From NCBI RefSeq assembly GCF_027571385.1, contig NZ_CP085636.1, forward strand, positions 3,224,001 to 3,288,000: DNA of 64,000 nt. Direction: 5' to 3'. Under the pieces are notes generated by a model. The model was given only the letters and a program-made list of their open reading frames with translations, ran no database searches and was not told the DNA's origin. This document shows positions 39,170 through 64,000 of this stretch, piece by piece. This DNA comes from Shewanella sp. MTB7. Lineage in GTDB: Bacteria; Pseudomonadota; Gammaproteobacteria; Enterobacterales; Shewanellaceae. Position 1 is the stretch's first letter. Every line of letters starts with the position of its first letter. A program made the translations under genes and the position numbers.

Positions 39170-40291
39170 ATGAACTTTCAATCTTTTAATCCTCCTCGTA
39201 GGATCTTAATGGGCCCAGGTCCTTCAGATATAAGCCCTGAGGTTCTGGCTTCACTTTCAAGACCCGTAATCGGTCATCTAGATCCCCTATTCGTCGGAAT
39301 GATGGATGAAGTAAAAGCCCTACTTCAATATGCTTTTCAAACTAAAAATGAGTTTACAATCGCGTTATCGGCACCAGGCTCTGCGGGGATGGAAGCGTGT
39401 TTTGTTAACCTCGTAGAAGCTGGCGACAAAGTCATCGTCTGCCGTAATGGTGTGTTTGGTGACCGCATGATCCAAAACGTCACTCGAATAGGTGCTGAAG
39501 CGATAATCGTTGACTCACCCTGGGGACGTGCTGTTGAAGTCGACAAAGTAGAGCAAGCACTTATTGCTAATCCTGATGCAAAATTTATCGCCTTTGTTCA
39601 CGCAGAAACCTCTACAGGCGCAGTATCTGATGCAAAAACCTTATGTGCACTGGCACAAAAGTATCACTGTCTCTCTATTGTTGATGCTGTCACCTCCTTA
39701 GGCGGAATAGAAGTCAAGGTCGATGAATGGGGAATCGATGCTATCTATTCCGGATCGCAAAAATGCTTATCTTGTGTGCCTGGTTTATCACCGATCTCAT
39801 TTAGTAAAAAAGCGGTCAATGTGATCAAAGAACGTAAAACGCAAATTCAAAGTTGGTTTTTAGATCAATCACTTGTAATGAACTACTGGTCAGGGAGTGG
39901 TAAGCGAAGTTATCATCATACCGCCCCAGTTAACTCTCTGTATGGATTACATGAATCGCTCCTTCAGTTACATAATGAAGGTCTTGAGAACCGCATCAAA
40001 CGCCATAGAATACAGCATGAAGCCCTTGCTAAAGGCTTGGCCAAATTAGGTATTGAGTTCATTGTCCCTGAAGAAGAGCGTTTACCTCAACTTAACGCTA
40101 TCTACATCCCAGAAGGCATTGATGACGTCAAAGTCCGCCACTACCTCCTCAATAAGTACAACTTAGAGATAGGTGCTGGTCTTGGTGATCTTGCAGGTAA
40201 AGCGTGGCGAATTGGTCTTATGGGCTATGCAGCGAGAAGTGAAAATGTCATTTTATGCTTGGCAGCACTTGAAGATGCGTTGAATCAGTAG
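39170..40291 (+). CDS. bhcA: PLP aminotransferase using glyoxylate; probable BhcA (aspartate-glyoxylate aminotransferase)
   Basis: A 373-residue class V aminotransferase of the alanine/serine-glyoxylate group. PLP lysine is K198 in YSGSQKCLS, and DAVTSLGG carries the PLP-contacting Asp. The N-terminal MGPGPSDISPEVL and RPVIGHLDP are typical of the group. In the beta-hydroxyaspartate cycle BhcA makes glycine from glyoxylate with aspartate as donor. The nearby bhcBCD-like genes support this role. The main alternative is a ureidoglycine-glyoxylate aminotransferase (PucG), also of this fold and linked to purine breakdown; but the cluster at the right end uses allantoicase, which does not make ureidoglycine. 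Start at 39170 (MNFQSFNPPRRIL) matches the family; the frame opens 17 codons earlier. Confidence 0.72.
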   Translation: MNFQSFNPPRRILMGPGPSDISPEVLASLSRPVIGHLDPLFVGMMDEVKALLQYAFQTKNEFTIALSAPGSAGMEACFVNLVEAGDKVIVCRNGVFGDRMIQNVTRIGAEAIIVDSPWGRAVEVDKVEQALIANPDAKFIAFVHAETSTGAVSDAKTLCALAQKYHCLSIVDAVTSLGGIEVKVDEWGIDAIYSGSQKCLSCVPGLSPISFSKKAVNVIKERKTQIQSWFLDQSLVMNYWSGSGKRSYHHTAPVNSLYGLHESLLQLHNEGLENRIKRHRIQHEALAKGLAKLGIEFIVPEEERLPQLNAIYIPEGIDDVKVRHYLLNKYNLEIGAGLGDLAGKAWRIGLMGYAARSENVILCLAALEDALNQ

Positions 40292-41056
40292 GGCATTATA
40301 GCCGTTTGCGCTTCCATAATGTGGAATTGAAAACGGCTATCTCTCCGGCAAAAAACCATAATGTGAGATGAGGCTTTTGACAAAAATCTAACTTTTGACG
40401 CATCAATTTGGCAGTGGCACAGGTAAAAAGTAATAGGAAAGCGCACTGCGATTATATTAAACTGGAATGATAGCTGTACGATACAAATACCGTAATAGTA
40501 ATTTACGATCATATTAATCATTGCAGAAATCATCACAATATATATATATACAATGTTAGGCCATTAATTAAATAGCACTTAAAATATAGAATAAAATCTA
40601 TTACAAACCACTTTAAACCAGAGTTGATGTAATATGTAAAACAGCTAGTATTTATTTTAAAACACACACCAACAAAGTAATCATAGTCATCTATTATATC
40701 AAAGAGTCCTTCATGTAGAAGACCTTGTGACTATGATTCATACTAAGGTTGCTCAACCTAATGCTATATTTTCCTTCTCTATAGAGTTCAGCCCATCAGA
40801 TTTACAAGCTTCGATTACTAATGATATAAACTAGACACGCCTAAAGCATCAAAACTATCCTTGCGGCTGTCTGCTTAAACGAATGTTCTTACTTCTATAC
40901 AGTTATTACTTTTTCTAGATCAGCTTTGCAGGATGCTTGTGATGCCTTATAAGGTTGAAATGGATATGATGAAGAGTCATAGCGGAAAATTTGTCAGTGA
41001 GAGGTTTAGTGACGTTGTATTGCACTTTTTTATTGGCCACAGATGTAACACTTTCA
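40292..41056. other. Long spacer after bhcA with two candidate operators
   Basis: About 765 bp of AT-rich sequence. It contains one strong TTYCA-N5-TGRAA site (40312) and a weaker one (AACCATAATGTGAGA, 40354-40368) 42 bp later. No convincing gene is seen on either strand; a minus-strand open frame at 40285-40536 has an unnatural composition. The operators suggest either an unrecognised small transcript or a relic of rearrangement. Confidence 0.45.
40312..40326. promoter_or_regulatory. Candidate IclR (BhcR-like) operator A
   Basis: TTCCA-TAATG-TGGAA, 20 bp after the aminotransferase stop. It differs at only two positions from the site at 42776. Confidence 0.5.
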
Positions 41057-41081
41057 ATAAAAAACCCTTCCGAAGAAGGGC
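41057..41081 (-). terminator. Terminator after the AzgA-like permease
   Basis: Minus-strand stem CCCTTC-TTCG-GAAGGG followed by TTTTTTATT, 52 bp after the permease stop. Confidence 0.88.
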
Positions 41082-41132
41082 TTAATCGATTTTCTATGAT
41101 CATGTAAATAAAATTAATTCATGAAGATAGCG

Positions 41133-42569
41133 TTAGTTTATGAAGATAAATTTCGCAATAAATAGTGCTGTGAGTGCCCAAATACCCTTAGAGATCTGAC
41201 TAGACTTGCCTGTACCCACTTTCAATACCGTATAGGTGATAAAGCCAAAAGCAATGCCGTTAGCGATTGAGAAGGTAAACGCCATCATGATGGTGGTACA
41301 AACAGCTGGAGCATATTCAGTAAAATCGTCCCAGTCCAGACCTTTCAGTGAACTCATCATTAACATTGCTACGTAGATAAGTGCGCCATCGACAGCAAAG
41401 CCTGGCAGCATTTGTGCTAGCGGTAAGAAGAACATGCCTACTGCAAACAACAAACCAATAGTCACAGCAGTGAGACCTGTACGCCCACCAACGGCAACAC
41501 CAGCAGCAGATTCAACATAAGAGGTCACAGGGGGACAACCAAAGCCAGTTCCAATCACTGATGAAATAGAGTCCGCTTTTAATGATTTACTTAACCCTTC
41601 AATTTTACCATTTTCATCTTGCAGGTTCGCACGTTCAGCTACGCCCATTAAGGTGCCGGCCGTATCAAAAATATTCACAAATAGGAAAGTCACAATCACA
41701 GGAATTAACGCAATTTGAAATGCACCCGCAATATCGGCTTTCCACAATATGGGCTCTAGTGCAGAAAACTCAGGTACAGCCAATATGCCTTTGTAGCTCA
41801 CAAAACCGGAGGCAGGAGCAAACGATTTAGCGGCTTCAGAAACCACGAAGAAATCTGTTGGTAACACCCATGTCATTACAAACGCGATAAAGGTAGTCGC
41901 GGCGATACCAATTAAGATAGCACCGAACACTTTACGATAGCTAAGCACCGAAATAAGCAGAAAACTGATGAAACCAAGCGCTGGCGCTTCTGGGCCGAAT
42001 TCACCAAAACCGAAGTGAGTCAGATCCGCAAGAGCAAGTGCGTTATCAGGATTAGGTATGACGATACCAGTGAAACGTAAACCGATAAAACCTAAGAAAA
42101 GGCCTACACCTGCGGTCATAGCCAATCGTAAGCTCATGGGAATGCTGTCTAGCATCCACTCCCTTAGTCGAGTGACACTCATTAAAACAAACAACACACC
42201 AGAAAGGAAAACCGCACCCAGTGCAATTTCCCAGCTATAGCCCATTCCACCGACGACTGAAAAAGTGAAAAAAGCATTCAGTCCCATTCCAGGGGCAAGT
42301 CCCACTGGCCAGTTAGCGTATAGTCCCATCAAAATCGTCGCAATGGCGGCACCAAGACAAGTCGCTAAGAATAGTCCTTCAAAGGGCATACCTGTTTTAG
42401 ACATAATAATGGGGTTTAAAAACATGATGTATGACATTGTCACGAAAGTGGTAAGACCCGCCATTAGCTCAGTTTTCACTGTGGTACTATGCGCAGAAAG
42501 TTTAAAAAGTCGTTCTAAAAGTCCGCCTGTTTTTGCTGATTCTTCGTGTGTTTGATTAACCTGTTCCAT
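41133..42569 (-). CDS. AzgA-type (NCS2) hypoxanthine/guanine/adenine permease
   Basis: A 478-residue inner-membrane protein with about 12-14 helices. The AzgA pattern is clear: TVKTELMAGLTTFVTMSYIM, GLAPGMGLNAFF, LFVNIFDTAGTLMGV and the signature PPVTSYVESAAGVAVGGRTG (TSYxESAAG). These proton symporters import hypoxanthine, guanine and adenine. It is next to glyoxylate-assimilation genes and 10 kb from guanine deaminase and urate oxidase, so it is the likely purine entry point. The long upstream region holds a candidate IclR operator at 42776. Exact purine preference cannot be read from sequence. Confidence 0.9.
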   Translation of the reverse strand: MEQVNQTHEESAKTGGLLERLFKLSAHSTTVKTELMAGLTTFVTMSYIMFLNPIIMSKTGMPFEGLFLATCLGAAIATILMGLYANWPVGLAPGMGLNAFFTFSVVGGMGYSWEIALGAVFLSGVLFVLMSVTRLREWMLDSIPMSLRLAMTAGVGLFLGFIGLRFTGIVIPNPDNALALADLTHFGFGEFGPEAPALGFISFLLISVLSYRKVFGAILIGIAATTFIAFVMTWVLPTDFFVVSEAAKSFAPASGFVSYKGILAVPEFSALEPILWKADIAGAFQIALIPVIVTFLFVNIFDTAGTLMGVAERANLQDENGKIEGLSKSLKADSISSVIGTGFGCPPVTSYVESAAGVAVGGRTGLTAVTIGLLFAVGMFFLPLAQMLPGFAVDGALIYVAMLMMSSLKGLDWDDFTEYAPAVCTTIMMAFTFSIANGIAFGFITYTVLKVGTGKSSQISKGIWALTALFIAKFIFIN

Positions 42570-43275
42570 AACTACAGTACTCTTATTGATTGAAAAATAA
42601 GGTCATTTTGTATATTTATTAAATTTGACCTGTTATGTGCTGACCCAGTTAACAAAAAGGTAATACCAGCTGCGGCTATTTATTAGAAAGAGGCTGTGTT
42701 AGACCCAATTTCTGTGTAGCTTATTCAATAGAGCACATTTAACAGCCAATGTTAACCACAATAAATTCATTTTAATTTCACAATGTGGAAACATATTGTT
42801 TTATCAAACACTCAGTCAAAAGATGGAGACGTTTAAGGAGGAGTAAAAAATATTCTCTGAGTCATTCAGACTATTTAAATTCACCAACACTGACAAAACT
42901 ACACGTCATATGTTCTCGGAGCTATAGCGAGTTATTCGGCCAACCATAGGGTAGATATTACGTTCCTGATGGAATTTGAAAGCCGATGACAAGGGTAATG
43001 GTTTAGCATTCGTAGCAGTTAATGCAAGCGCCATTGTCGCTCTTTGCGCCGTTAAACGTCTTGTTCAGGGAGTAGGTATCAATAGGTGAACGGTCATTCA
43101 ATCCCGTCTATATGATATAAATTTCACATCGTAAAATTGATTAGAATTTAAATCATAGTTAGATTTAAGCCTCCCTGTTATTCTAATTTCATATCATTTT
43201 GTCAACATATCATGATAATATTTAAGTTTTTACCAACCCTATTAACCAAACTAAACCAAATTGAATTAGGTAGTT
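42570..43275. other. Divergent regulatory region between azgA-like and sulP genes
   Basis: About 700 bp without a supported gene. It contains the candidate IclR operator at 42776 and a degenerate one (TTTCA-CATCG-TAAAA) at 43122-43136, placed about 150 bp upstream of the SulP start. Confidence 0.5.
42776..42790. promoter_or_regulatory. Candidate IclR (BhcR-like) operator B
   Basis: TTTCA-CAATG-TGGAA, about 205 bp upstream of the AzgA-like permease start and 485 bp upstream of SulP. One arm mismatch from a perfect inverted repeat. Confidence 0.5.
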
Positions 43276-44892: not shown

Positions 44893-44900
44893 CGACCTAA

Positions 44901-45356
44901 CTATAGAATATTCTGACTCAGCGTTGGTGATGTGATTCGGTTGAATATATCAACTCCAGCCTGAGCACAGTCCAAATCTTGCTTTGGAGAGCCAGAGCTG
45001 ACACCTATCCCACCAATGACCATCCCATCATATGAAATGGGTAAACCACCACCAACAATACACATTCTCCCACCTAACGCGGTATGAATGCCGAATAAAC
45101 CACTTTTATCTCCAGGAATACACACCTGATTGACCTCATGTGTAGCTTTTCGTGCCGATGCAGCAGTAAAAGCCTTATCTTGGGAGAGAGTTATACTGTG
45201 TATTTTCCCTCCATCCATACGTTCAAAGGCAATTAAACTCCCTGATTCATCAACGACAGAGATACACATTGGCACACCGATTTTAGCTGCTTTTTGCATA
45301 GCCCCCTCGATGATTAATTTTGCTTCGGTTAGGTTTAATCGATTTATGGTTAACAT
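44901..45356 (-). CDS. GlcG/HbpS-family protein
   Basis: A 151-residue protein of the GlcG/HbpS family (Pfam DUF336). Family features are the N-terminal LTLTEAK-like INRLNLTEAKLIIEGAM, VVDESGSLIAFERMDGG and GGRMCIVGGGLPI, then GGIGVSSGSPKQD. It has no signal peptide. Relatives bind haem in Streptomyces (HbpS) or lie in glycolate oxidase operons (GlcG), but their role in carbon metabolism is unknown. GAGGG lies before the ATG. It follows the IclR regulator by 26 bp and is probably cotranscribed. Confidence 0.88.
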   Translation of the reverse strand: MLTINRLNLTEAKLIIEGAMQKAAKIGVPMCISVVDESGSLIAFERMDGGKIHSITLSQDKAFTAASARKATHEVNQVCIPGDKSGLFGIHTALGGRMCIVGGGLPISYDGMVIGGIGVSSGSPKQDLDCAQAGVDIFNRITSPTLSQNIL

Positions 45357-45382
45357 ATCTTCCCTCTAATTATTTATAAATT

Positions 45383-46174
45383 TTAATCTGACTTTTGATT
45401 ATCAATATAACCAAGCTCTGCTGAAAGTGATTTACCTGCAAGCAGTAAGTCTTTTAGCCACTCATCTCTTCGCCTATCAATAGGCGCAGAAACCGATAGC
45501 CCAGCAACCACTTCACCATATCGGTCATATAGTAGTACGCCAATACAACCTACCCCAATCTCAGCTTCTTCATTATCAAAGGCATAGCCTTGCTCGGCGC
45601 ACCCCGTACATTCCTGCACGAGATCATTTAATGAAGAAAACGTATTACGCGTATATGTCGGTAAATTAGTACGTTGAGCATATCCTTTAATGCCCTCCTC
45701 TCCTTCCATGCCTAGCATCATCTTACCTACCCCAGTAACATGCAAAGGGGCACGACTACCAATCATTTGTTGGACATGCATCATCCTATTGGGTATCGCC
45801 TTTTCAACGTAAATAACCACATCCCCTTCACGTGTTGTCAGATTAATGGTTTCACCAAATTTATCACGCAGTTTTTCCATATAGGGGATCGCCACTTTAC
45901 GAAAGTCGACGCTGTTATTCGGATAATGGCTTAACCTTAATAACCTGCCACTTAACAGATACTTCCCCTTACTATCTCTTTCAACAAAACGGTTATCGAT
46001 TAACGAGTGCAGTATACGAAAAGCCGTAGAAGGCGCTAAGTTGGTGTCTGCACTCAGCGCCTTTAACGTGACAGGCATAGTGTAACGAGAGATGGCATCT
46101 AACAAGGTGGCAGCTCGGTCGATCACTTGAATTCTAGGCTGAACTTTTGCTTCGCTCACTTTTGTTTCTTTCAT
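45383..46174 (-). CDS. bhcR: IclR-family regulator, probable BhcR
   Basis: A 263-residue regulator. Residues 15-75 form the IclR winged helix (VIDRAATLLDAIS, APSTAFRILHSLIDNRFVE), and the rest is the effector domain with APLHVTGVGKMMLG and a C-terminal ligand pocket including GCIGVLLYDRYGEVVAGLSVSAP. It is divergent from bhcB-like, as the IclR regulator BhcR is from its operon in Paracoccus, where glyoxylate is the ligand. The start at 46174 (MKETKVSEA) is chosen over a GTG nine codons upstream. Three inverted repeats in the shared spacer are its probable operators. Confidence 0.78.
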   Translation of the reverse strand: MKETKVSEAKVQPRIQVIDRAATLLDAISRYTMPVTLKALSADTNLAPSTAFRILHSLIDNRFVERDSKGKYLLSGRLLRLSHYPNNSVDFRKVAIPYMEKLRDKFGETINLTTREGDVVIYVEKAIPNRMMHVQQMIGSRAPLHVTGVGKMMLGMEGEEGIKGYAQRTNLPTYTRNTFSSLNDLVQECTGCAEQGYAFDNEEAEIGVGCIGVLLYDRYGEVVAGLSVSAPIDRRRDEWLKDLLLAGKSLSAELGYIDNQKSD

Positions 46175-46258
46175 TATTATTTGACCTCGATAACAGCGCA
46201 CATTGCGAATATAAATCTAAAACCACAATAAAACCAAATACCCAATGATGCAAATAAG

Positions 46259-46273
46259 TTTCACATAGTGGAA
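46259..46273. promoter_or_regulatory. Candidate IclR operator C
   Basis: TTTCA-CATAG-TGGAA, 85 bp upstream of the regulator start in the divergent spacer. Confidence 0.55.
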
Positions 46274-46360
46274 TAATGTAGCAACGGCAATTAACAACCT
46301 AGTCTCAACCTTATATTTCAATACAGTACAGCGATCCCCCTAAATACCCAAGATTAATAA

Positions 46361-46375
46361 TTCCATAATATGGAA
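46361..46375. promoter_or_regulatory. Candidate IclR operator D
   Basis: TTCCATAATATGGAA, a perfect inverted repeat with six-base arms and a three-base centre. The strongest of the set; 150 bp upstream of the bhcB-like start. Confidence 0.65.
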
Positions 46376-46403
46376 TTCAAACTCTTTGCGTGAATGCGAC
46401 GGT

Positions 46404-46418
46404 TTCCATAAAGTGAAA
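46404..46418. promoter_or_regulatory. Candidate IclR operator E
   Basis: TTCCA-TAAAG-TGAAA, 43 bp centre-to-centre from operator D, about four helical turns. Confidence 0.55.
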
Positions 46419-46525: not shown

Positions 46526-47503
46526 ATGAGCAGTAGAACCCCATCAGCAATGTATATCCCAACCTATGATGATGTACTCATTGCCCATGAACGAATCAAG
46601 CCTTACATTCATGAGACGCCTGTACTCACCTCACGTTTTTTGAATGACTTAACAGGTTCAGAGCTATTTTTTAAATGCGAAAATTTGCAAAAAGCAGCCG
46701 CATTTAAAGTACGTGGGGCTTGTAATGCAGTCTTTGGATTGACTGATGAGAAAGCCAAAAAAGGGGTAGCTACGCACTCGTCAGGTAATCATGCACTATC
46801 ACTGTCATATGCAGCAGGACAACGTGGTATTGATGTCACTGTTGTGATGCCAAGAACAGCGCCTCAGGCAAAGAAAGATGCTGTGATTGGCTACGGTGGC
46901 ACTATCGTTGAGTGCGAGCCGTCAACCAGTTCACGTGAAGCAGTATTTAGCGAAGTAGTGGCACAATCTGGTGCTGACTTTGTGCACCCCTATAACGACC
47001 CACGCGTGATAGCAGGTCAAGCTACTTGCTCTAAAGAGCTGATTAATCAGGTTGATGAACTCGATATTGTCATTGCCCCTATCGGTGGCGGAGGCATGAT
47101 CTCTGGCACTTGCTTAACCCTATCGACAATAGCGCCTCAAATACAGGTCTATGCTGCTGAGCCCGTTAACGCCGATGACGCAGCACGCTCATTTAAAGCG
47201 GGTTATATCATCGCTGATGATGCGCCAAACACCGTGGCTGATGGCCTAAAAGTCCCTCTAAAAGAACTCACCTGGCATTTCGTCAAGAACCATGTAACCG
47301 ACATTTTAACGGCTACAGAAGATGAAATTGTCGCGGCGATGAAGATTGTTTGGCTACGAATGAAACTCGTTATCGAGCCTAGTAGTGCGGTTTCGCTGGC
47401 GACCATCATAAAGAACCCTGAGATATTTAAAGGTAAACGAGTTGGAATCATTATTACCGGAGGCAATGTTGATTTAGACAAGCTTCCTTGGATGAGCCAG
47501 TAA
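46526..47503 (+). CDS. bhcB: PLP dehydratase of the threonine/serine dehydratase family; probable BhcB
   Basis: A 325-residue fold-type II PLP enzyme. PLP lysine is K61 in QKAAAFKVRGA, and the phosphate-binding GGGGM lies near residue 190. Family folds of serine racemase and threonine dehydratase are similar. The context (IclR upstream, aldolase and iminosuccinate reductase downstream) points to beta-hydroxyaspartate dehydratase, which converts erythro-3-hydroxyaspartate to iminosuccinate. The usual GSFK at the lysine is replaced by AAFK. AGAGG precedes the ATG. The bhcC-like gene starts 43 bp later, so an operon is likely. A plain threonine dehydratase is the alternative. Confidence 0.78.
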   Translation: MSSRTPSAMYIPTYDDVLIAHERIKPYIHETPVLTSRFLNDLTGSELFFKCENLQKAAAFKVRGACNAVFGLTDEKAKKGVATHSSGNHALSLSYAAGQRGIDVTVVMPRTAPQAKKDAVIGYGGTIVECEPSTSSREAVFSEVVAQSGADFVHPYNDPRVIAGQATCSKELINQVDELDIVIAPIGGGGMISGTCLTLSTIAPQIQVYAAEPVNADDAARSFKAGYIIADDAPNTVADGLKVPLKELTWHFVKNHVTDILTATEDEIVAAMKIVWLRMKLVIEPSSAVSLATIIKNPEIFKGKRVGIIITGGNVDLDKLPWMSQ

Positions 47504-47546
47504 ATTAGATCCCGATTGGCATAACGATAAACAGATGGAGACAACA

Positions 47547-49975: not shown

Positions 49976-50106
49976 AAGCGACCTTGATATGGAAGCTTTG
50001 ATAAAAGAGCTTAGTGAATAACCTGCTTTACAGATACTCTCTTTTAGGTCAACGTTATCATTACACAACAAAAATCGAATTAAAAAATAACAGCACAGGA
50101 GCAGAA

Positions 50107-54478: not shown

Positions 54479-55105
54479 CTAGTCTATCCCACATCCCTTG
54501 AGGATTATTTGAGTTAACGAACTGACAACATCTTCAAAATCTTCATCACTCATTGACTCTTTGTTTAAGGCCGCAACCACTTGCACATTAAAGTCAGCGT
54601 AGTGTTGAGTAGAACTCCAGATAAGAAATAGCAAATGGTAAGGATTAACCTTATCAATCAAGCCTTGATCGATCCAAGCATCAATCACATCGACTTGGCT
54701 TTGTAGCCAGGTTCCGAAATCCCCATAGAGGTAATCATTTAATATTGGTGCGCCATGGATTAGCTCACTGGCGAAGATTCTAGAGGAATCAGGATCATCT
54801 TTAGAATGCATAACTTTGGCACGAATGTAAGCGCTAAGTGCCTGTTTAGGATCCTTATCAACCGACAAGGTATCATACTCTCTGTTCCAAACATCGATGA
54901 TGTTACTTAGCAGCTGTTGGTACAAATCGGTTTTATCTTGAAAGTAGTAATGGATATTTGCTCTGGCAATATTAGCCCGCTCTGCAATTCGCTTAATTGA
55001 GGCACCTTTAAAGCCATAGGTGACAAATTCTTTCTTAGCAGCATTGAAAATAACAGCCTTATTCTTTTGCCGAATATTGCCTTCTGAAGCTTTAGCTTTG
55101 ACCAC
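54479..55105 (-). CDS. TetR-family regulator, RutR-like
   Basis: A 208-residue TetR protein with a GTG start preceded by AGGA. The helix-turn-helix (VTYGFKGASIKRIAERANIA, IHYYFQDKTDLYQQLL) covers residues 20-70. The C-terminal half (ELIHGAPIL, IDAWIDQGLI, LLFLIWSSTQHYADF) is of the RutR/YcdC type. E. coli RutR senses uracil and controls pyrimidine and purine catabolism and glyoxylate-linked genes. Position at the end of the purine cluster, 136 bp after glcB, makes it the likely local regulator. The ligand here is not known. Confidence 0.85.
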   Translation of the reverse strand: MVKAKASEGNIRQKNKAVIFNAAKKEFVTYGFKGASIKRIAERANIARANIHYYFQDKTDLYQQLLSNIIDVWNREYDTLSVDKDPKQALSAYIRAKVMHSKDDPDSSRIFASELIHGAPILNDYLYGDFGTWLQSQVDVIDAWIDQGLIDKVNPYHLLFLIWSSTQHYADFNVQVVAALNKESMSDEDFEDVVSSLTQIILKGCGID

Positions 55106-55241: not shown

Positions 55242-57479
55242 TTAATTCATCGCTTTCACTTCAACTCTTCGTTGATGCAACAGTGGCTCTGTATAACCAT
55301 TTGGCTGGAATTTTCCTTTAAAAATCAGCTCGATTGCCGTTTGAAATGCAATGTTAGACTTAACGTTTTCAGCCATCGGTTCGTACCTTACATCGGTGAT
55401 ATTTTGCATATCGACCACCTTGGCCATCTTGTGTAAAGATGCCATCACTTGTTCACTGGTTAACAGTCCATGGTGTAACCAGTTACAAATATGTTGGCTA
55501 GAGATACGCAAGGTCGCTCTATCTTCCATACGACTAACATCATTAATATCGGGCACTTTGGAGCAGCCAGTACCGTGATCTATCCAACGTACTACGTAAC
55601 CCAACAAGCCTTGAATATTATTATCTAACTCATGTTGAATATCTTGTTGACTCAAGTTATCTCGGTTCTTCAACAGTGGAATGGTCAATAGATCCGTTAA
55701 CTCATCATTATATAAAGAGTTATCTATTTCAGCTGAAAACAACTGTAGCAGCTTGTCCTGGATTTCACTGACGTTAACGTGGTGATAATGCAATACGTGC
55801 AGAGTCGCGGCCGTTGGTGACGGTACCCACGCACAGTTTGCGCCAGATTGTGGATGGTCTATCTTACTTTTTACCATGGCTGACATCTGATCGGGTATCG
55901 CCCACATCCCCTTGCCTATTTGGGCTTTGCCCTTAAAGCCAGCTTGTAGGCCAATGCGTACGTTGCGGTTTTCATAGGCTGCGATCCACTTTTCATTTTT
56001 CATCAGCTCTTTTCGCGCCATGGGCCCCGCTTGCATGCTGGTGTGTATCTCATCCCCTGTTCTATCTAAAAAGCCAGTATTAATAAAGGCGACACGGTCC
56101 TTACTGGCACGAATACACTCTTTTAAATTAACCGATGTACGACGCTCTTCATCCATAATACCCATCTTGATGGTATTGGTGGCTAAACCTAAACTCTCCT
56201 CAATGCGAGTAAACAGCTCATTACTAAATGCCACCTCTTCAGGTCCATGCATTTTCGGTTTAACAATATATACACTGCCTTGACGAGAGTTTTTAAACGC
56301 TGAATTACCTTTTAGATCATGCAAAGAGATAAGTGTCGTCATTAACCCATCTAAAATACCTTCCGATACCTCTTGGTTGTCTAATGTGAGCACAGCGTCA
56401 TTTGTCATCAAATGACCAACATTGCGAATAAACAACAGGCTACGGCCAGGCAGTGTCAACACCTGATTGTCCAAACTTGTGTAGTTCCTATCAGCATTTA
56501 ATTTACGCGTGATCGATACGCCATTTTTTTCAAGGGTTTCAGTTAAATCTCCTTTCATCAGGCCAAGCCAATTACGGTACACTGCCGTCTTATCTTCAGC
56601 ATCAACGGCAGAGATTGAGTCTTCACAATCTTGTATCACACTCAAGGCCGACTCTAAAATGATATCAGCAACAGAAGCAGGGTCTGTTTTCGCGACAGGC
56701 ATACTGGGATCAATTTTGATCTCTATGTGTAAGCCATTATTTTTAAAAAGCAGCGCACTTGGATTCTGTTCATCACCATTAAAACCAACCAGTTTATCAG
56801 GATCTTGTAAACACACTAGAACACCCAATTGAAGCTTGACGACAAGTGCAGAGTTGGCAATTTGATAACTAACGACATCGCCATGGCTGCCATTTTGCAG
56901 CGGGATAACGTCATCTAAAAATTGACGACCATAGGCCTGCACTTTTGCGCCCCGAACTGGATTATAGTGCCGAGTGATCCCCGCTCCGTTATCATCACTT
57001 ATCACATCGGTACCATAGAGTGCATCATATAAACTACCCCAACGCGCATTGGCAGCGTTTATAGCAAAGCGTGCATTCATTAAAGGCACCACAAGCTGTG
57101 GGCCTGCCACTTTACCGACTTCATCGTCAACATAAGCGGTCGTGATAGAGAAGTCCTCTTTCTCTTCAACGATGTATCCAATATCAGTTAAAAATTGCTG
57201 GTACTTTGCTTGTTCGATACCATCATTTACCCCCAGATTGTTGTCAGCATGCTTGTGATCACGCTTCTGCTCTAAGTGCCATGCATCTATTTGCGTCTGA
57301 AATCTTGTTCTAGTCGCTAATAGTTGCTCATTTATAGGCGTGAATTCATTAAAGAGGTTCGCCATTGAAAGCCAAAAACCTTCCGCATCGACACCAGTTC
57401 CTGGTAGCACTTCATGCTCAACAAAGTTGTATAAACACTCGGCAACTTTGTAACCATTCTTTATAACTCGTTTATGCAT
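55242..57479 (-). CDS. glcB: Malate synthase G
   Basis: A 745-residue cytoplasmic enzyme that condenses glyoxylate with acetyl-CoA to malate. It is longer than AceB and has the G-type features: HYNPVRGAKVQAYGRQFLDD, LFIRNVGHLMT, the Mg-binding region EEVAFSNELF and FINTGFLDRTGDEIHTSM; the catalytic Asp near the C-terminus lies in VRWIDHGTGCSK/EDRATLRIS. It starts three bases after puuD ends, so it is coupled to urate oxidation, not to acetate or glycolate genes. It would use glyoxylate released from ureidoglycolate. Confidence 0.95.
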   Translation of the reverse strand: MHKRVIKNGYKVAECLYNFVEHEVLPGTGVDAEGFWLSMANLFNEFTPINEQLLATRTRFQTQIDAWHLEQKRDHKHADNNLGVNDGIEQAKYQQFLTDIGYIVEEKEDFSITTAYVDDEVGKVAGPQLVVPLMNARFAINAANARWGSLYDALYGTDVISDDNGAGITRHYNPVRGAKVQAYGRQFLDDVIPLQNGSHGDVVSYQIANSALVVKLQLGVLVCLQDPDKLVGFNGDEQNPSALLFKNNGLHIEIKIDPSMPVAKTDPASVADIILESALSVIQDCEDSISAVDAEDKTAVYRNWLGLMKGDLTETLEKNGVSITRKLNADRNYTSLDNQVLTLPGRSLLFIRNVGHLMTNDAVLTLDNQEVSEGILDGLMTTLISLHDLKGNSAFKNSRQGSVYIVKPKMHGPEEVAFSNELFTRIEESLGLATNTIKMGIMDEERRTSVNLKECIRASKDRVAFINTGFLDRTGDEIHTSMQAGPMARKELMKNEKWIAAYENRNVRIGLQAGFKGKAQIGKGMWAIPDQMSAMVKSKIDHPQSGANCAWVPSPTAATLHVLHYHHVNVSEIQDKLLQLFSAEIDNSLYNDELTDLLTIPLLKNRDNLSQQDIQHELDNNIQGLLGYVVRWIDHGTGCSKVPDINDVSRMEDRATLRISSQHICNWLHHGLLTSEQVMASLHKMAKVVDMQNITDVRYEPMAENVKSNIAFQTAIELIFKGKFQPNGYTEPLLHQRRVEVKAMN

Positions 57480-57482
57480 ATG

Positions 57483-58697
57483 CTAATTGACTGCCTTGGC
57501 TGATGATTGGGAAACATTTGATAACCAAATGGCTAACGTCGTACGCTCTTCATCGGTCATCTCGGTCTTGTTCATAAACGGCATATCTTTAGCATCAATC
57601 ACTCGTGCTTGAATGCGCGGTGCCCATTGCACAATACTTGCTTCATCGGAAAATATGATGCCAGCAGGCGCAATCGTAAACACATCATCAGTCGGCGCAT
57701 CTGAATGACAACTACTACAACGTGCATCGATAATATGCTTGATTTGGGTGAGCCCTACGGTTTGCTGCTTCTGTTCAGCGCTAAGTTCAGTAGAAACAGG
57801 CGCTATAACAAAGGCAAGCGCAATGGTGGCGACCACGGATCCCACAAGTATTAATGGCTTTTGCTTACCAAAATGGCGTAATACAAAGTATTGGCGAACC
57901 GCAGCAGTAATGACAATGATCGCAATCAACACTAACCAGTTGGCACTATGGTTATAGGTCATTGGATAATGGTTTGAGATCATGATGAAGATGATTGGCA
58001 ACGTAATATAGGTATTGTGTGTTGAACGCAGCTTGGCGTTCAATCCGTAAGCAGGATTTGGTGTTTTCCCCTCCTCAACCGCTTTCACTAAAGCACGTTG
58101 TGACGGCATTATCCCGAAAAACACATTACCCGCCATAATGGTGCCGATGATTGCGCCTATGTGCATATAAGCGCCACGAGCACTGAACACTTGGGTTAAT
58201 CCATAAGATAATGCAGTGATAACAAGCATCAAGATCACGCCTAGCACTAAACTGTGATTTTTAAGTTTAGTGCGCACTAAAAACTCATAGCTACCGACAC
58301 CCAGTACAATGGATCCCACACCGATAGCAATGGCTTGAAATTGGGTTAAATCAGCAACGCGCTTATCGATAAGGTATGTGTCAGCACCGACATAAAACAT
58401 CAGTGATAACAGTAGAAAACCAGTTAACCACGTGGTATACGCTTCCCACTTAAACCAATGTAAATTAACTGGGATCTGTGGCGGCGCCAATTTATATTTA
58501 GCGACTTCATAAAAACCGCCACCATGAATAGCCCAAAGATCACCACTCACCCCTTTGTCGGCCTTCCATTGCGGTGGTTTTTCCAAATGGTTATCTAACC
58601 AAACAAAGTAAAATGATGCACCAATCCAAGCGATGCCTGTGATCACATGTGCAAAACGAATAATTAAGTTTAACCATTCATTAATATAGGGATCCAT
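57483..58697 (-). CDS. puuD: PuuD, membrane-bound urate oxidase with cytochrome c domain
   Basis: A 404-residue protein. Residues 1-300 carry about eight membrane helices (starting MDPYINEWLNLIIRFAHVIT) of the PuuD/DUF989 urate oxidase domain; the C-terminal 90 residues form a periplasmic cytochrome c with CSSCH haem motif and axial Met in KDMPFMNKTEM. In this family urate is oxidised to 5-hydroxyisourate with electrons passed to the respiratory chain, not to oxygen directly, so no hydrogen peroxide is formed. Start at 58697 has GAGG upstream. Product goes to HiuH. Confidence 0.93.
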   Translation of the reverse strand: MDPYINEWLNLIIRFAHVITGIAWIGASFYFVWLDNHLEKPPQWKADKGVSGDLWAIHGGGFYEVAKYKLAPPQIPVNLHWFKWEAYTTWLTGFLLLSLMFYVGADTYLIDKRVADLTQFQAIAIGVGSIVLGVGSYEFLVRTKLKNHSLVLGVILMLVITALSYGLTQVFSARGAYMHIGAIIGTIMAGNVFFGIMPSQRALVKAVEEGKTPNPAYGLNAKLRSTHNTYITLPIIFIMISNHYPMTYNHSANWLVLIAIIVITAAVRQYFVLRHFGKQKPLILVGSVVATIALAFVIAPVSTELSAEQKQQTVGLTQIKHIIDARCSSCHSDAPTDDVFTIAPAGIIFSDEASIVQWAPRIQARVIDAKDMPFMNKTEMTDEERTTLAIWLSNVSQSSAKAVN

Positions 58698-58761
58698 AAG
58701 CTTCCTCAATTTTTTATAATTAGTTGTTGTACTCGTTCTTGTTTTTTTATCTGACTAGCAT

Positions 58762-60048
58762 CTACACTCGCTCACCCATAATATGCGTCGCTTTTATATG
58801 ACGTTCGTCACCTAACATACTTAAGATGAAAAGCTTTTCAGACAAATTGTTACAGTGCTGCATACGGCGAGACATAAGCTCGGTGGCATGATAGTCAAGG
58901 ACGATAAAGTCAGCCTCAGCACCTTTAGTGAAATTACCAATTGTGCCTTCAAGATCTAAGGCCACTGCGCCACCTAACGTGGCTAAATAAAACGATTGGA
59001 TCGGACTCAGTTTATCTGCTCGAAGCTGCTGAGTTTTGTAACCTTCGTTAAGCGTGCTTAGCATTGAAAACGTGGTGCCAGCACCAATATCTGTACCGTA
59101 ACCAACATTAACATCATACTTTTGCGCCTGTTTTAGGTTGAATAGCCCGCTGCCTAGAAACAAGTTTGAACTTGGACAAAATGCAATTGCTGCATCGGTT
59201 TCACCTAAACGCTGACATTCGCTGTCATGCAGGTGGACGCCATGTGCGAAGACACTGCGACGGCCCAACAATTTATGTTGATCATAAACATCTAAATAGC
59301 CCTTGTTGTCAGGAAATATTTCATTGACCCAAGCTATTTCATCTTTGTTTTCACTAAGATGAGTGTGTAGATATACGCTAGGGTTTTCAGCCAGCAGTTG
59401 GCCTGCTTTATTGAGTTGTTCGGCTGAGCATGTTGGTGCAAACCTTGGTGTGATGGCATATTGCAATCTATCGACTTTATGCCACTTTTCAATCAGTGCT
59501 TTACTGTCGTCATAACCGGTTTGTGCAGTATCGGATAGATAGTCTGGACAGTTTTGATCCATTAGTACCTTGCCACAAATCATACGTAATTTTTTCTGTT
59601 GAGCCACAGTAAAGAAAGCCTCAACCGACTCTTTATGTACAGTGCCGAACACTAATGCGGTGGTGGTTCCAGCTGCAAGCAGTTGAGTTAAAAAGAACTC
59701 GGCCACTTTTTTCCCATGCTCAAAATCTTCAAATTGTCGCTCGAAAGGAAAAGTATAATTTTCTAACCATTCAAGTAGTTGCTCACCATAAGAGGCAATC
59801 ATCTCTGTTTGCGGGTAATGCACATGAGTGTCGATAAAGCCTGGCATTATTAGTCCAGTTTCATAATGGGCGACCTCAATCGATGGGTCCAATGTGGGTA
59901 ATAGTTCGCTCGCATCTCCTACCTGCTCAACCAATCCATCTTTGATAATTAACAGTCCGTCATCAAAGTGCTGGTAGCTCTCTTCTAGACGACCCTTGGC
60001 TGGATCAGACAAGAAGTGCAGTAACTCTCCCCGGTATGCTTTCAACAT
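58762..60048 (-). CDS. guaD: Guanine deaminase
   Basis: A 428-residue amidohydrolase that converts guanine to xanthine. Metal ligands are visible: PGFIDTHVHYPQT (HxH), the second half's YLHTHLSE, FAHGVHLHD, and the Asp in GYGTDIGAGTTFSML. The family match PQTEMIASYGEQLLEWLENYTFP (short runs) is strong. The ATG at 60048 is preferred over one two codons upstream because AAGG lies nine bases before it. Xanthine dehydrogenase, needed to link it to urate oxidase, is not in the window and may lie to the right. Confidence 0.95.
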   Translation of the reverse strand: MLKAYRGELLHFLSDPAKGRLEESYQHFDDGLLIIKDGLVEQVGDASELLPTLDPSIEVAHYETGLIMPGFIDTHVHYPQTEMIASYGEQLLEWLENYTFPFERQFEDFEHGKKVAEFFLTQLLAAGTTTALVFGTVHKESVEAFFTVAQQKKLRMICGKVLMDQNCPDYLSDTAQTGYDDSKALIEKWHKVDRLQYAITPRFAPTCSAEQLNKAGQLLAENPSVYLHTHLSENKDEIAWVNEIFPDNKGYLDVYDQHKLLGRRSVFAHGVHLHDSECQRLGETDAAIAFCPSSNLFLGSGLFNLKQAQKYDVNVGYGTDIGAGTTFSMLSTLNEGYKTQQLRADKLSPIQSFYLATLGGAVALDLEGTIGNFTKGAEADFIVLDYHATELMSRRMQHCNNLSEKLFILSMLGDERHIKATHIMGERV

Positions 60049-60172
60049 TATCATTTACCTTTTTATCGTATCGTTTGCAGTTTTATTATTAGATACCAAT
60101 CTGGGTTGGTATTTTGTTGCTAAACTCGTTTGCTACCACAAAACGAATCATCATGGCGGTTAAAAATCGCGC

Positions 60173-60691
60173 TTAACGTTGAGCAATTAACAGTGATCCA
60201 TCGAGTACAAGCGCATCACAATTATCTCCCTCTCCGCCTCTATCGATCACCAAGAAATCACTCTCATCAAGGGTCGCTAAACAGAAGTGATGCCAAGTTC
60301 CTTTGTGATAATTAACTCCCTGATCTGAACTTGCGATAAACACTTCAATCTTGTTGACATCGAACTCACCAGCCGGTGCCACGACCACTATGTAGGGATT
60401 ATTTCCCATAGGTATAAATGCCTGACTGCCATGGGGATGACGCTCCATCATCTTAATCGCTATCGGCAGTGCTAACGGCTTTGCACGGAAAATACTGATC
60501 AAGGTATGACCGCCATTATCACTCACATCAACCTTAGCTAAATCATGGTAACGTTGAGCAAGGCCATCATTTATCGACAAGATTTTTGCATCAGGCGTGG
60601 CCTCGATAACATCACCAAAGGCACTAAATGCGGCTTGTGTTAATGGTTTTGATGTAAGAAGTCTTAACTTATCTGTCATCATATTTTCCAT
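60173..60691 (-). CDS. allA: Ureidoglycolate lyase
   Basis: A 172-residue cupin-like enzyme that splits ureidoglycolate to glyoxylate and urea. Family residues are in FSAFGDVIE near the start, MERHPHGSQAFIPM (metal-binding His and Gln), and GTWHHFCLATL, VDRGGEGDNC. The start at 60691 (MENMMTDKLRLL) has AAGGTG six bases upstream, inside the end of hiuH. This is the step that makes glyoxylate. Confidence 0.93.
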   Translation of the reverse strand: MENMMTDKLRLLTSKPLTQAAFSAFGDVIEATPDAKILSINDGLAQRYHDLAKVDVSDNGGHTLISIFRAKPLALPIAIKMMERHPHGSQAFIPMGNNPYIVVVAPAGEFDVNKIEVFIASSDQGVNYHKGTWHHFCLATLDESDFLVIDRGGEGDNCDALVLDGSLLIAQR

Positions 60692-60701
60692 TCTATTCAC
60701 C

Positions 60702-61043
60702 TTAGCTGCCGCGGTAGGTTGAATAACCAAATGCAGTTAATAACAAAGGGATATGGTAATGACTATTATCGCCATCAAGTTCAAAGACAATATCGACATA
60801 GGGATAAAATCCTTTGTCGTTATTGGCGTTAAAGTAAGTGCTAGTATCAAAATGCATTCGATACACACCAGCATCCAGAACTCTGTCATCAGCCAATAAT
60901 CCGCCAATGCGTCCGTCTAGGTTAGTGATACCCGATGCCAATACTTGCCACTCGCCTTCTACTTGAGCAAACAGGGTAATGGGTAAACCGGGTGCAGGTT
61001 TTCCACGCGTAGTGTCCAGAACGTGCGTTGTTATTTGGCTCAT
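60702..61043 (-). CDS. hiuH: 5-hydroxyisourate hydrolase (transthyretin-like)
   Basis: A 113-residue transthyretin-fold enzyme that hydrolyses 5-hydroxyisourate to OHCU. It has the N-terminal motif THVLDTTRGKPAPGLPI and the diagnostic C-terminal tetrapeptide YRGS. Catalytic His, Arg and Ser residues sit at these two ends. No signal peptide, so cytoplasmic. Ten bases separate it from the allA start. Confidence 0.96.
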   Translation of the reverse strand: MSQITTHVLDTTRGKPAPGLPITLFAQVEGEWQVLASGITNLDGRIGGLLADDRVLDAGVYRMHFDTSTYFNANNDKGFYPYVDIVFELDGDNSHYHIPLLLTAFGYSTYRGS

Positions 61044-61096
61044 ATCTTTTACTCTTATTTATTAGGCTGCAATATTCTTGCTTATCACAAATTGAC

Positions 61097-61597
61097 TCAA
61101 ATTAGTTTCTGCAGACGTAGCTGAAAAATTTTGCGCTGCTCTTCTGCTGCATTAACTAGCTCAGTGATTTTGTCGTTAGGTAATCGCGCAAGCAGCAAGC
61201 TCAACATCTCCTCAGCACTCTTGCCTGTGGCGCACACGATAAAGATAAAACCAAACTTTTTAAGGTATTCAGCATTACCATTGGCTAAATCTTGTAAGAC
61301 TTGCTCTGATGCCTGATTGACAGCACCTTGCTCACCGCTGGCAAGCGCCTTAGTATTGGCATATTTCGCACGTAAGGTATCAACATTGCCGATCTGAGGG
61401 TGACCTTCAAACGCTTCTAAAAGGTCATATTCTCCCAAGCTTTTCCAAGCATCATTGGCCTTAGATGCTAACACTTGAGCATTTAAAAATGGTCTTGATG
61501 ACACCATCACTTCAACCCAATTTGATGCCGTGCAGCACTGCATAAAAGCATGTGTAGCTTGCTCAACAGGTAGGTTATTTAACGTATCTAAATTCAT
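61097..61597 (-). CDS. uraD: OHCU decarboxylase
   Basis: A 166-residue enzyme that decarboxylates OHCU to S-allantoin. The catalytic His lies in FEGHPQIGNVDTL near residue 65, and FGFIFIVCATGKSAEEML is the conserved substrate region. The frame opens at 61609, where ATG overlaps the allantoicase stop (TAATG). I favour the ATG at 61597 (MNLDTLNNLP) because GGGG precedes it, but the upstream one is possible. Confidence 0.94.
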   Translation of the reverse strand: MNLDTLNNLPVEQATHAFMQCCTASNWVEVMVSSRPFLNAQVLASKANDAWKSLGEYDLLEAFEGHPQIGNVDTLRAKYANTKALASGEQGAVNQASEQVLQDLANGNAEYLKKFGFIFIVCATGKSAEEMLSLLLARLPNDKITELVNAAEEQRKIFQLRLQKLI

Positions 61598-61608
61598 CTC
61601 AGTCCCCA

Positions 61609-62667
61609 TTAATCTTTGCGCTTACCGAATAAACGCATACGTGCAATACCACCATCAGGGAAGATATTGAGGCGCACATGGGTGAAACTTTGTTGGCTAT
61701 TTGGCACTATCTCATTGATAAACAAATGTTCACGATGTGCATGGAGTTTGGTGCGAGTAATAATGGGTTGCCATAGGTCCGCTTGTTGATCATCAGTGAA
61801 ATCATCACTGTCTGATACCATCCCCTCTAGCGAGAAAGTATCAGGGAAATTACCTTTAAAGTGACAGGTATCAATAAGCACCTTCTCGATCGAACCACGG
61901 CTAGCCAACTTTACGATAGACCAATCAGGACCGGGATCACGACGTCGCTTAGTTTCCCAACCTGCGCCCATATTGGCAGGTCGACCAGGCATAATCAGGT
62001 TATTCTTGTCGCTAAAGAACATATCGCTGGCAAGCAGAGCCCTACCACCATTCTTAATATAGGCAAGATCGATAAGCTCACCGGCAATGAACTGTTCCCA
62101 ATTCACATCAGCTTCGCCATAAACGCGGATCCGGGCAATACCTCCATCAGGGAACATGTTGAGACGAATGTGGGTCCAAGCAGTATCATTGCTTATTGAG
62201 AATAAATTTTGACTATGGGCCTCAACCTTAGTTTGCGCTAACAGGGCATGCCAGACGGTTTCCTCACTAGGTTCAATCTCGCTCACACAAGCTTCAACCG
62301 ACACGGCCTCAGGTGCGTTACCACGGAAATAGTTAGTATCGATATCCACACCACGGATCAAACCTTTAATACCAAGCTTGATAACGCACCAATCAAATTC
62401 ACGACCATCATCACGGCCGTAACTACGACGAGACTCCCAACCATCCATCCACTTACCGCGATCGGTAAATTTATCATCGATAAAAATGCCACGACCCGGT
62501 TTGATTAAATTTTCCATTTCGGCAAAAAAGTCATCACTACACACGAGTGTTTCACCGCCCACGCCTTCACTGGCAAGATCAACGTATTGAGATTTAAATT
62601 TTCTTTCAAGCTCAAGCGCTTCGCCTGTTAACTTATTTTGTTGTTGTGTATCGATATCTAGCATCAT
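61609..62667 (-). CDS. alc: Allantoicase
   Basis: A 352-residue enzyme of two allantoicase repeats, each ending in a FPDGGIAR motif (FPDGGIARIRVYG about residue 180 and FPDGGIARMRLFG near the C-terminus). It hydrolyses allantoate to ureidoglycolate and urea. Each repeat also has ANMGAGWETKRRRDPG / GRGIFIDDKFTDRGKW-type glycine-rich parts. Its presence, with AllA, shows the allantoicase branch of ureide breakdown, in which no ureidoglycine is made. It is coupled to uraD by stop/start overlap. Confidence 0.95.
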   Translation of the reverse strand: MMLDIDTQQQNKLTGEALELERKFKSQYVDLASEGVGGETLVCSDDFFAEMENLIKPGRGIFIDDKFTDRGKWMDGWESRRSYGRDDGREFDWCVIKLGIKGLIRGVDIDTNYFRGNAPEAVSVEACVSEIEPSEETVWHALLAQTKVEAHSQNLFSISNDTAWTHIRLNMFPDGGIARIRVYGEADVNWEQFIAGELIDLAYIKNGGRALLASDMFFSDKNNLIMPGRPANMGAGWETKRRRDPGPDWSIVKLASRGSIEKVLIDTCHFKGNFPDTFSLEGMVSDSDDFTDDQQADLWQPIITRTKLHAHREHLFINEIVPNSQQSFTHVRLNIFPDGGIARMRLFGKRKD

Positions 62668-62731
62668 AACGTCGAGATCCTATTTAATATTTAGTATATT
62701 TTATAATTGGTTATGGTAATTTCTGCTGCCG

Positions 62732-64000
62732 TTACAGCTTTCCCTTTAGTAAAGGTCGTCCAATCGGCGCGTTGATAAATTCATCTTGCTGGTACACATG
62801 ATGGCCTCGCACATAAGTATGCAAAATTTGTCCGGTGACTTGTCGGCCTGCATAGGGAGTAATATTGTGGCGATGTTTGATCATTTCATTGGTGATGGTG
62901 TAACTTACTTCAGGATCAAACACTACAAAATCAGCGTGATACCCGGCTGTTATCTGGCCTTTTATGCTATCTAAACCGGCAAACTTAGCGGTTTTACTCG
63001 ACATTAATCGAGCCAGATCTACTAAGGTAAAGCCGCGTTCTTTCGCTTCGGTCCAAATCAGTGGCAGACCAAATTGCAAGGCTGATATTCCGCCCCACGC
63101 TTTTTCAATATCACCGGTGTCGATATGTTTGAGCTCGGGCGTACAGGGAGAGTGATCTGACACAATAAAATCTAAACGCCCATCGGTAACTGCTTGCCAT
63201 AAATGTTCACGATTGCTGTTCTCACGAATAGGCGGGCAACACTTAAACAAGGTTTTACCATCCGGAATATTTTCTGAAGCAATCGTTAGATAATGTGGGC
63301 AGGTTTCGGCAGTAAAGCGTAAACCCTCGCTTTTCGCTGTCGCAATCGATGCGAGTGCTTCATCAGATGAAAGGTGGACGATATGAATCTTACAGTTATC
63401 CCCCCGCTCTTTTGACTCTCGAGCCATATCCACCATGAGTGAAATGGCATCATTCTCCCAACGCTTAGGTCGAGAGGCTAAAAAGCTGTTGTATTTATCA
63501 CTCACAACCACATCATTAAAGCCACCGCAGTCAAGCTCAGCATGAATCAAGTAAGGCACATCGTGTTTGGCTAGAATAGGCATGGCCGCACGAATATCTT
63601 TGGCTTCGACGTTAGGGAACTCCGGGATACCTGAGTCAATTAAAAAGGATTTAACCCCTAATACGCCAGCATTAAGCAGTTCATCTAGATCATCGATATT
63701 TTGTGGGATAACCCCGCCCCAAAAACCACAATCAACCCATAACTTGTCGTCAACTGAGTTCAATTTCTCTTCGAATGCCGCCTTGGTGGTTGTCACGGGA
63801 ATGCAATTTAACGGCATATCCACTAATGCGGTAATACCACCTGCTGCCGCGGCTTGAGTGGCCGTGTTAAAGCCTTCCCATTCAGTACGACCGGGTTCGT
63901 TAATATGCACATGCGAATCAACCAAACCTGGCATAATAACCTGATCAGCATAATCGAGCACCTCGCACTCAAGCGCCATGCCATAAGGGTGGACGGCATG
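62732..64000 (-). CDS. allB: Allantoinase, 5' end beyond the window
   Basis: A dihydroorotase-family amidohydrolase; 415 residues follow the first in-frame ATG in the window at 63979, but the frame stays open to the right edge and reads HAVHPYG upstream, so the true N-terminus is outside. Metal ligands: MPGLVDSHVHINEPGRTEWEG (HxH), GVKSFLIDSG (carboxylated Lys), LIHAELDC, HIVHLSSDEA and the Asp in VSDHSPC. It opens the hydantoin ring of allantoin to allantoate. Likely first or early gene of the minus-strand purine operon; 64 bp separate it from alc. Confidence 0.93.
   Translation of the reverse strand, partial: HAVHPYGMALECEVLDYADQVIMPGLVDSHVHINEPGRTEWEGFNTATQAAAAGGITALVDMPLNCIPVTTTKAAFEEKLNSVDDKLWVDCGFWGGVIPQNIDDLDELLNAGVLGVKSFLIDSGIPEFPNVEAKDIRAAMPILAKHDVPYLIHAELDCGGFNDVVVSDKYNSFLASRPKRWENDAISLMVDMARESKERGDNCKIHIVHLSSDEALASIATAKSEGLRFTAETCPHYLTIASENIPDGKTLFKCCPPIRENSNREHLWQAVTDGRLDFIVSDHSPCTPELKHIDTGDIEKAWGGISALQFGLPLIWTEAKERGFTLVDLARLMSSKTAKFAGLDSIKGQITAGYHADFVVFDPEVSYTITNEMIKHRHNITPYAGRQVTGQILHTYVRGHHVYQQDEFINAPIGRPLLKGKL

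Follow-up and report, generated by a model that had tools for sequence, protein, structure and literature searches.

The stretch of Shewanella sp. MTB7 DNA analyzed here (the window, 64 kb of the forward strand of a 6.37-Mb, single-contig genome) carries bhcB, bhcC, and bhcD, encoding three enzymes of the beta-hydroxyaspartate cycle (BHAC), together with an aminotransferase gene and a purine/ureide gene cluster. The BHAC has been described as a marine glycolate route. From sequence comparisons, we consider it likely that this locus encodes a BHAC variant devoted mainly to purine-derived glyoxylate, in which an enzyme of the alanine-glyoxylate aminotransferase (AGT) family takes the place of BhcA.

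bhcBCD in the absence of bhcA

The genes at the center of this proposal are as follows.

39170..40291, plus strand: AGT-family (class V) aminotransferase, proposed glycine maker, not BhcA by profile scores and tree
45383..46201, minus strand: BhcR-like IclR regulator (best NCBIfam model BhcR, 152 bits; cut-off of 350 not reached)
46526..47503, plus strand: BhcB, beta-hydroxyaspartate dehydratase (593 bits; cut-off, 550)
47535..48716, plus strand: BhcC, 3-hydroxyaspartate aldolase (716 bits; cut-off, 690)
48947..49975, plus strand: BhcD, iminosuccinate reductase (556 bits; cut-off, 500)

The set and order given in a preliminary description of this DNA, an IclR gene divergent from bhcB, bhcC, and bhcD, were confirmed: orthologs of all three enzymes lie in a single cluster, each above its curated equivalog cut-off. 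Among solved structures, BhcC is closest to the D-3-hydroxyaspartate aldolase 6qkb (625 bits; the runner-up, a D-threonine aldolase, scores 348), BhcD to the iminosuccinate reductase 6rqa (382 bits; runner-up, 154), and BhcB to a serine racemase (335 bits). The identification of the divergent gene as bhcR holds in part, in that BhcR is its best model but is matched below the cut-off.

The preliminary description had also placed bhcA nearby. Against the BhcA model, whose cut-off is 650 bits, the aminotransferase at 39170 reaches only 209 bits; its closest solved relative is the alanine-glyoxylate aminotransferase 1vjo (340 bits). A tree of 49 rows gives the 11 BhcA rows full support as a clade, which sits on a very long branch and is separate from the rows of AGT type; the outlier L133 was too divergent for placement. 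Since it falls below the BhcA cut-off and lies far from the BhcA clade, the window aminotransferase is, as judged from profiles and phylogeny, an AGT-type enzyme and not BhcA, an identity that the genome-wide absence of BhcA (below) also excludes. The preliminary description would have abandoned its reading had the four proteins grouped with ordinary enzymes, AGT among them; the aminotransferase does belong with AGT, and BhcB, BhcC, and BhcD do not fall with their ordinary counterparts. Three positions fixed across 23 AGT rows are not shared by 16 paralogue rows, a pattern that is uninformative on substrate.

Profile searches of the whole MTB7 genome found no BhcA above the cut-off. The same was true of all 21 genomes of this bhcA-less type (6 Shewanella, 14 Colwellia/Thalassotalea, and 1 Solemya symbiont), in which the best matches reached 206 to 215 bits, as against 720 to 733 bits in 3/3 control genomes. 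We compared 80 BhcC loci from named genomes. The interval from the IclR gene to bhcB holds no BhcA-like gene in 16 Shewanella, Colwellia, and Thalassotalea loci or in the gill symbiont of Solemya velum (L055); for three Shewanella genomes (G049, G094, and G095) the check for BhcA was genome-wide only. Outside Shewanella, Colwellia, and Thalassotalea, a full bhcA is present in 55 of the 64 BhcC loci, and the remaining nine comprise L055, five loci that break off at a contig end or close to one (L049, L051, L062, L070, and L077), and three that are unassigned (L080, L081, and L088). One of the latter, from an Oceanospirillaceae metagenome-assembled genome (MAG), encodes a 76% BhcC (L081:10001-11152); its 10-kb flanks showed neither BhcB nor BhcD nor an aminotransferase. 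The Solemya symbiont (L055 and L103), which has bhcBCD without bhcA, carries a GlcD-like protein and lacks AllA; its lack of bhcA appears to be a separate case.

The preliminary description had noted that the window contains no glycolate oxidase. As far as GlcD is concerned this extends to the whole genome, where the best model match is 98 bits; other kinds of glycolate oxidase, the FMN type included, were not searched for. GlcD-like proteins scoring above 400 bits, a threshold of our own placed in the gap between scores of 423 and 361 bits, are encoded by 34 of 55 BHAC genomes; the curated TIGR00387 cut-off (567.9) is reached by 0/55, and by the E. coli control. They occur in 1 of 20 Shewanella/Colwellia-group genomes (G165), in the Solemya symbiont, in 3/5 Oceanospirillales, and in 29/29 of the rest (28 alphaproteobacterial loci and Spiribacter). 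Marinomonas MED121 and a Bermanella MAG have a genuine bhcA, yet no GlcD above 400 bits. Across the 80 BhcC loci, a GlcD-like gene was found in the flanks of one (L089, 33% identity). Glyoxylate carboligase (Gcl), which would open a different route for glyoxylate, exceeded its cut-off in 0/26 genomes tested.

A predicted purine route to glyoxylate

The neighboring genes named in the preliminary description as making glyoxylate from purines (PuuD, HiuH, UraD, allantoinase, allantoicase, and AllA) were confirmed on the minus strand at 55242 to 63979, along with malate synthase G and guanine deaminase. The cluster, its presumptive regulator, and a purine permease gene closer to bhcBCD are listed below.

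41133..42569, minus strand: purine permease of the Xan_ur_permease family (Pfam, 167 bits), which we take to be AzgA-like
54479..55105, minus strand: RutR-like TetR regulator, candidate reader of the palindrome M2 described below (TIGR03613, 186 bits, cut-off of 368 not reached; Pfam TetR_C_3, 168 bits)
55242..57479, minus strand: malate synthase G, glcB (1069 bits; cut-off, 989)
57483..58709, minus strand: PuuD-type urate oxidase (Pfam Urate_ox_N, 425 bits)
58762..60054, minus strand: guanine deaminase (613 bits; cut-off, 375)
60173..60730, minus strand: AllA, ureidoglycolate lyase (203 bits; cut-off, 160); the listed start overlaps HiuH, and a later start is likely
60702..61043, minus strand: HiuH (Pfam Transthyretin, 130 bits)
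61097..61609, minus strand: UraD (185 bits; cut-off, 139)
61609..62667, minus strand: allantoicase (410 bits; cut-off, 278)
62732..63979, minus strand: allantoinase AllB (559 bits; cut-off, 358)

The genes xdhC, xdhB, and xdhA continue directly beyond the window end (own-genome locus L092), and profile matches cover every step of the route, Xdh, PuuD, HiuH, UraD, AllB, allantoicase, and AllA. Ureide clusters vary among Shewanella (L110, L113, and L132): G107 lacks allantoicase, and in G094 and G095 allantoicase and xdhC have no allantoinase gene between them. In Colwellia DT_19 (L013), AGT is followed by phosphoribosyltransferase, adenosine deaminase, and then permease genes, which enlarges the set of purine genes around it.

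Two palindromes link the AGT, bhc, and purine genes

Two operator-like palindromes, M1 (TTYCAYNNNRTGRAA) and M2 (TTGACACNNGTGTCAA, with at most 2 mismatches allowed), recur at these genes. Their positions in the window, none with a strand, are the following.

39023..39038: M2 palindrome (RutR-like; 2 mismatches to TTGACACNNGTGTCAA), ~147 bp before the AGT gene
39100..39115: M2 palindrome (2 mismatches), ~70 bp before the AGT gene
40312..40326: M1 palindrome, resembling a BhcR operator, directly 3' of AGT
42776..42790: M1 palindrome upstream of the permease gene
46259..46418: promoter of the bhc genes, containing M1 three times (46259, 46361, and 46404)

Counted per genome, M1 is present in the bhc promoter in 18/18, in the permease promoter in 6/7, and within 150 bp 3' of AGT in 14/17. 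Regions of this kind, 25.8 kb out of 791 kb, hold 87 of the 95 M1 matches, overlapping loci being counted twice in these totals; a first-order Markov background predicts 3 per Mb. Match totals for both motifs count loci, some of which overlap, so that one site may count twice; the per-genome figures are unaffected. Within the window, M1 occurs five times, always in the AGT-bhc stretch; elsewhere in the same genome, ten small loci plus one 18-kb stretch contained no M1 apart from the AGT site, met again. In other lineages M1 precedes bhcA in 24 of 55 loci, with a single further M1, before a GlcG-like gene (Amphritea, L026). A palindromic site is thus common to bhc promoters here and in other lineages, and M1 would most simply be the BhcR operator. 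One M1 match, between xdhA and the permease gene of MTB7 itself (L092:6321), was not used as evidence, since it lies beyond the 300-bp region and was not seen in four other Shewanella loci covering xdhA (L110, L112, L113, and L132). In Colwellia, the M1 site 3' of AGT sits right behind a terminator-like stem and is often doubled; in L013 and L094, it stands just before a phosphoribosyltransferase-like gene.

M2 was found before AGT in 16/17 genomes, before xdhA in 5/5, and in the bhc promoter in 11/18, the window's own bhc promoter not being among these; before the permease gene it was found in 0/7. Promoter and flank regions account for 42 of the 48 matches counted, against a background of ~2 per Mb, and in the 64-kb window only the two sites before AGT were detected, even at 3 mismatches. 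The RutR-like TetR gene adjoins the ureide cluster, and its product is a putative reader of M2. Half-site-shuffled controls (40 per motif) matched at most one promoter for M2, and at most one for M1 save for one control with 22, a permutation (TTYYACNNNGTRRAA) that overlaps M1.

Distribution and linkage

Among 152 Shewanellaceae genomes, BhcD exceeds its cut-off in 6. Those same 6 encode the AGT ortholog (91 to 100% identity), below which the identity of the best match drops to 76 to 77%. Allantoicase is encoded by 5 of these 6 genomes and by none of the 146 others; the sixth, G107 (L110), has kept the other ureide genes. Fisher tests gave 6e-11 for AGT with BhcD and 9e-9 for allantoicase with BhcD, for genes that are mostly linked. 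The AGT ortholog is also present in 20/20 Shewanella/Colwellia-group genomes without BhcA.

Elsewhere, ureide genes flank bhc in 17 of the 64 other loci (16 alphaproteobacterial and 1 Oceanospirillales). Within Rhodobacteraceae, AllA lies no more than 10 kb from bhcD in 27 of the 70 BhcD genomes with a listed AllA position; chance would give ~0.5% by our rough arithmetic (20 kb of ~4 Mb), and shared ancestry inflates the count. The general co-occurrence of AllA with the BHAC (AllA in 53/55 BHAC genomes) was dropped as alphaproteobacterial evidence, since AllA is present in 272/295 Rhodobacteraceae and 8 of the 20 AllA-negative genomes listed are BhcD positive (3 further AllA-negative genomes are not listed).

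Weighing the evidence

The preliminary description had suggested that this BHAC may serve purine carbon and nitrogen salvage. Its bhcA has to be given up, but the purine assignment gains from the lack of GlcD and Gcl, from co-occurrence in Shewanellaceae, and from the shared operator-like sites. Several observations weigh against our proposal. M1 and M2 were first recognized by eye in the regions upstream of bhc and AGT, some of which are in the counts; tests independent of that reading come from xdhA, the permease, the 3' flank of AGT, and bhcA promoters in other lineages. In the 300-bp upstream regions, M1 was found before AGT in 0/17 and before xdhA in 0/5. Neither regulator attains equivalog status: the IclR protein scores 152 bits against 350 for BhcR, though BhcR tops the IclR models, and the TetR protein scores 186 against 368 and 160 against 230 bits for RutR. 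In the E. coli rutA-rutR gap, the site nearest to M2 has 5 mismatches. Colwellia genome G165 and the Solemya symbiont (G166) carry a GlcD-like protein, and G166 is without AllA. Co-occurrence in Shewanellaceae may reflect block transfer instead of function, which is conceivable because the genes are physically linked and the Shewanella AGT rows nest within a clade holding Colwellia and Thalassotalea rows. In Rhodobacteraceae, with AllA in 272 and BhcD in 126 of 295 genomes, the co-occurrence test is uninformative, and the support for a purine-BHAC link is that of synteny.

It is conceivable, if unlikely, that BhcBCD is a general glyoxylate sink, fed by isocitrate lyase or by glycolate via an unrecognized enzyme, and that the purine genes are mere neighbors. 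The absence of M1, presumed to be glyoxylate responsive, before xdhA would fit such a sink, as would the malate synthase G gene inside the ureide cluster and the prevalence of AllA in Rhodobacteraceae irrespective of the BHAC. However, M2 is common to AGT, xdhA, and, in 11/18 genomes, the bhc promoter; M1 precedes the purine permease gene in 6/7; GlcD is absent from 19/20 Shewanella/Colwellia-group genomes; and allantoicase tracks BhcD in Shewanellaceae, all of which favor a specific tie to purines.

We regard with greater doubt the idea that AGT is unrelated to the BHAC, being a plain glycine/alanine housekeeping or detoxifying enzyme, with the glycine for BhcC coming from another source. The same genome does encode a 75% identical paralogue adjoining genes read by eye as ilv genes, relatives of 70 to 77% identity occur family-wide, and in several Colwellia, AGT adjoins ureide genes and not bhc genes. 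Set against this are the restriction of the ortholog to exactly the 6/152 Shewanellaceae with BhcD, its presence in all 20 BhcA-less Shewanella/Colwellia-group genomes, and the M2 and M1 sites before and after the gene. That the aminotransferase is instead a ureidoglycine-glyoxylate aminotransferase (PucG type) of the purine route is very improbable: it belongs to the same class V group (PucG, 262 bits; 3nnk, 242 bits) and has a purine-type operator, but 1vjo scores higher, and the cluster holds allantoicase, whose product is ureidoglycolate and not ureidoglycine.

Proposed pathway

In the pathway that we favor, a purine-directed BHAC with AGT in place of BhcA, purines would be taken up and converted, as judged by homology, to glyoxylate by Xdh, PuuD, HiuH, UraD, AllB, allantoicase, and AllA. 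The AGT-family enzyme, under a purine-type RutR-like operator, would convert part of the glyoxylate to glycine; from its family, alanine or serine is a likelier amino donor than aspartate. BhcC would then join glycine to a second glyoxylate, BhcB would dehydrate the product, and BhcD would reduce it to aspartate, steps that are known for these orthologous families. Ordinary transaminases could carry aspartate on to oxaloacetate. By analogy with Paracoccus, the BhcR-like regulator would sense glyoxylate and, judging from M1, may also act at the purine permease gene, while the RutR-like protein may act on the AGT and xdh genes. An aspartate donor would close the cycle, as in Paracoccus; alanine or serine would turn it into an open route to aspartate able to absorb purine nitrogen.

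Other features of the window

Two further genes adjoin the bhc cluster, and two other features lie farther away.

44901..45356, minus strand: HbpS/GlcG-like protein, after the IclR gene (Pfam PF03928, 129 bits)
50014..50559, plus strand: YtoQ-family protein, after bhcD (TIGR03646, 209 bits; cut-off, 155)
53541-53972 and 54011-54316: integron-integrase-like gene, split into two pieces that differ in frame and located between bhcBCD and the ureide cluster
24373-25896: tandem tRNA array of nine tRNA-Met and three tRNA-Val genes

In the window, as in the majority of Shewanella, Colwellia, and Marinomonas loci, the IclR gene is followed by the GlcG/HbpS-like gene, which may be a missing functional part of the system. 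The YtoQ-family gene (in Pfam, nucleoside 2-deoxyribosyltransferase YtoQ) follows bhcD in Shewanella loci and is found near bhc in Colwellia and Motiliproteus.

Relation to known systems and implications

The Paracoccus denitrificans report describes bhcR-bhcABCD (PMC11323563), with which the MTB7 locus shares orthologous BhcB, BhcC, and BhcD and a divergent IclR regulator; an M1-like site also stands before bhcA in other lineages. MTB7 departs from that system in lacking bhcA, in encoding an AGT-type enzyme nearby, in the absence of GlcD from its genome, and in having operator-like sites shared with purine genes. In the same text, purines and allantoin are named as possible glyoxylate sources, the study itself being on glycolate, and a palindrome is reported before bhcA (PMC11323563). 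The Pseudomonas aeruginosa Gcl-GlxR system is likewise a dedicated glyoxylate-assimilating module linked to purine breakdown, and its Gcl route is allantoin inducible; in contrast to the BHAC, it works through glyoxylate carboligase and tartronate semialdehyde reductase and loses CO2 (PMC12694930), and Gcl is not above the cut-off here. The AGT resembles 1vjo, its best solved relative, but the gene here travels with BhcBCD and bears purine- and BhcR-type sites. E. coli RutR is a TetR-family protein with palindromic boxes of ~16 bp (PMC10891134), a family and a 16-bp palindromic operator shared by the system here; the MTB7 protein differs in scoring below the RutR model cut-offs, in an M2 that is 5 mismatches off, and in its association with purine and not pyrimidine genes. 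Among the literature matches listed, none stood out as reporting a BHAC with purine genes or a BHAC without bhcA.

A bolder view, which we hold only tentatively, is that the BHAC has been opened: an aminotransferase of the alanine/serine type would supply glycine, and BhcC, BhcB, and BhcD would turn two glyoxylate and purine nitrogen into net aspartate, with BhcR-like (glyoxylate) and RutR-like (purine) control acting jointly, and glyoxylate from purines, besides algal glycolate, may have kept and shaped the BHAC of marine proteobacteria. The retention of bhcBCD without bhcA and, in 19/20 genomes, without GlcD, together with operator-like sites common to the bhc and purine genes, suggests a second role for these enzymes, the carbon-neutral recovery of purine carbon and nitrogen. 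M1 offers a testable candidate for the BhcR operator across Alpha- and Gammaproteobacteria. If the proposed role is true, bhc gene counts in metagenomes would not be a proxy for glycolate use alone.

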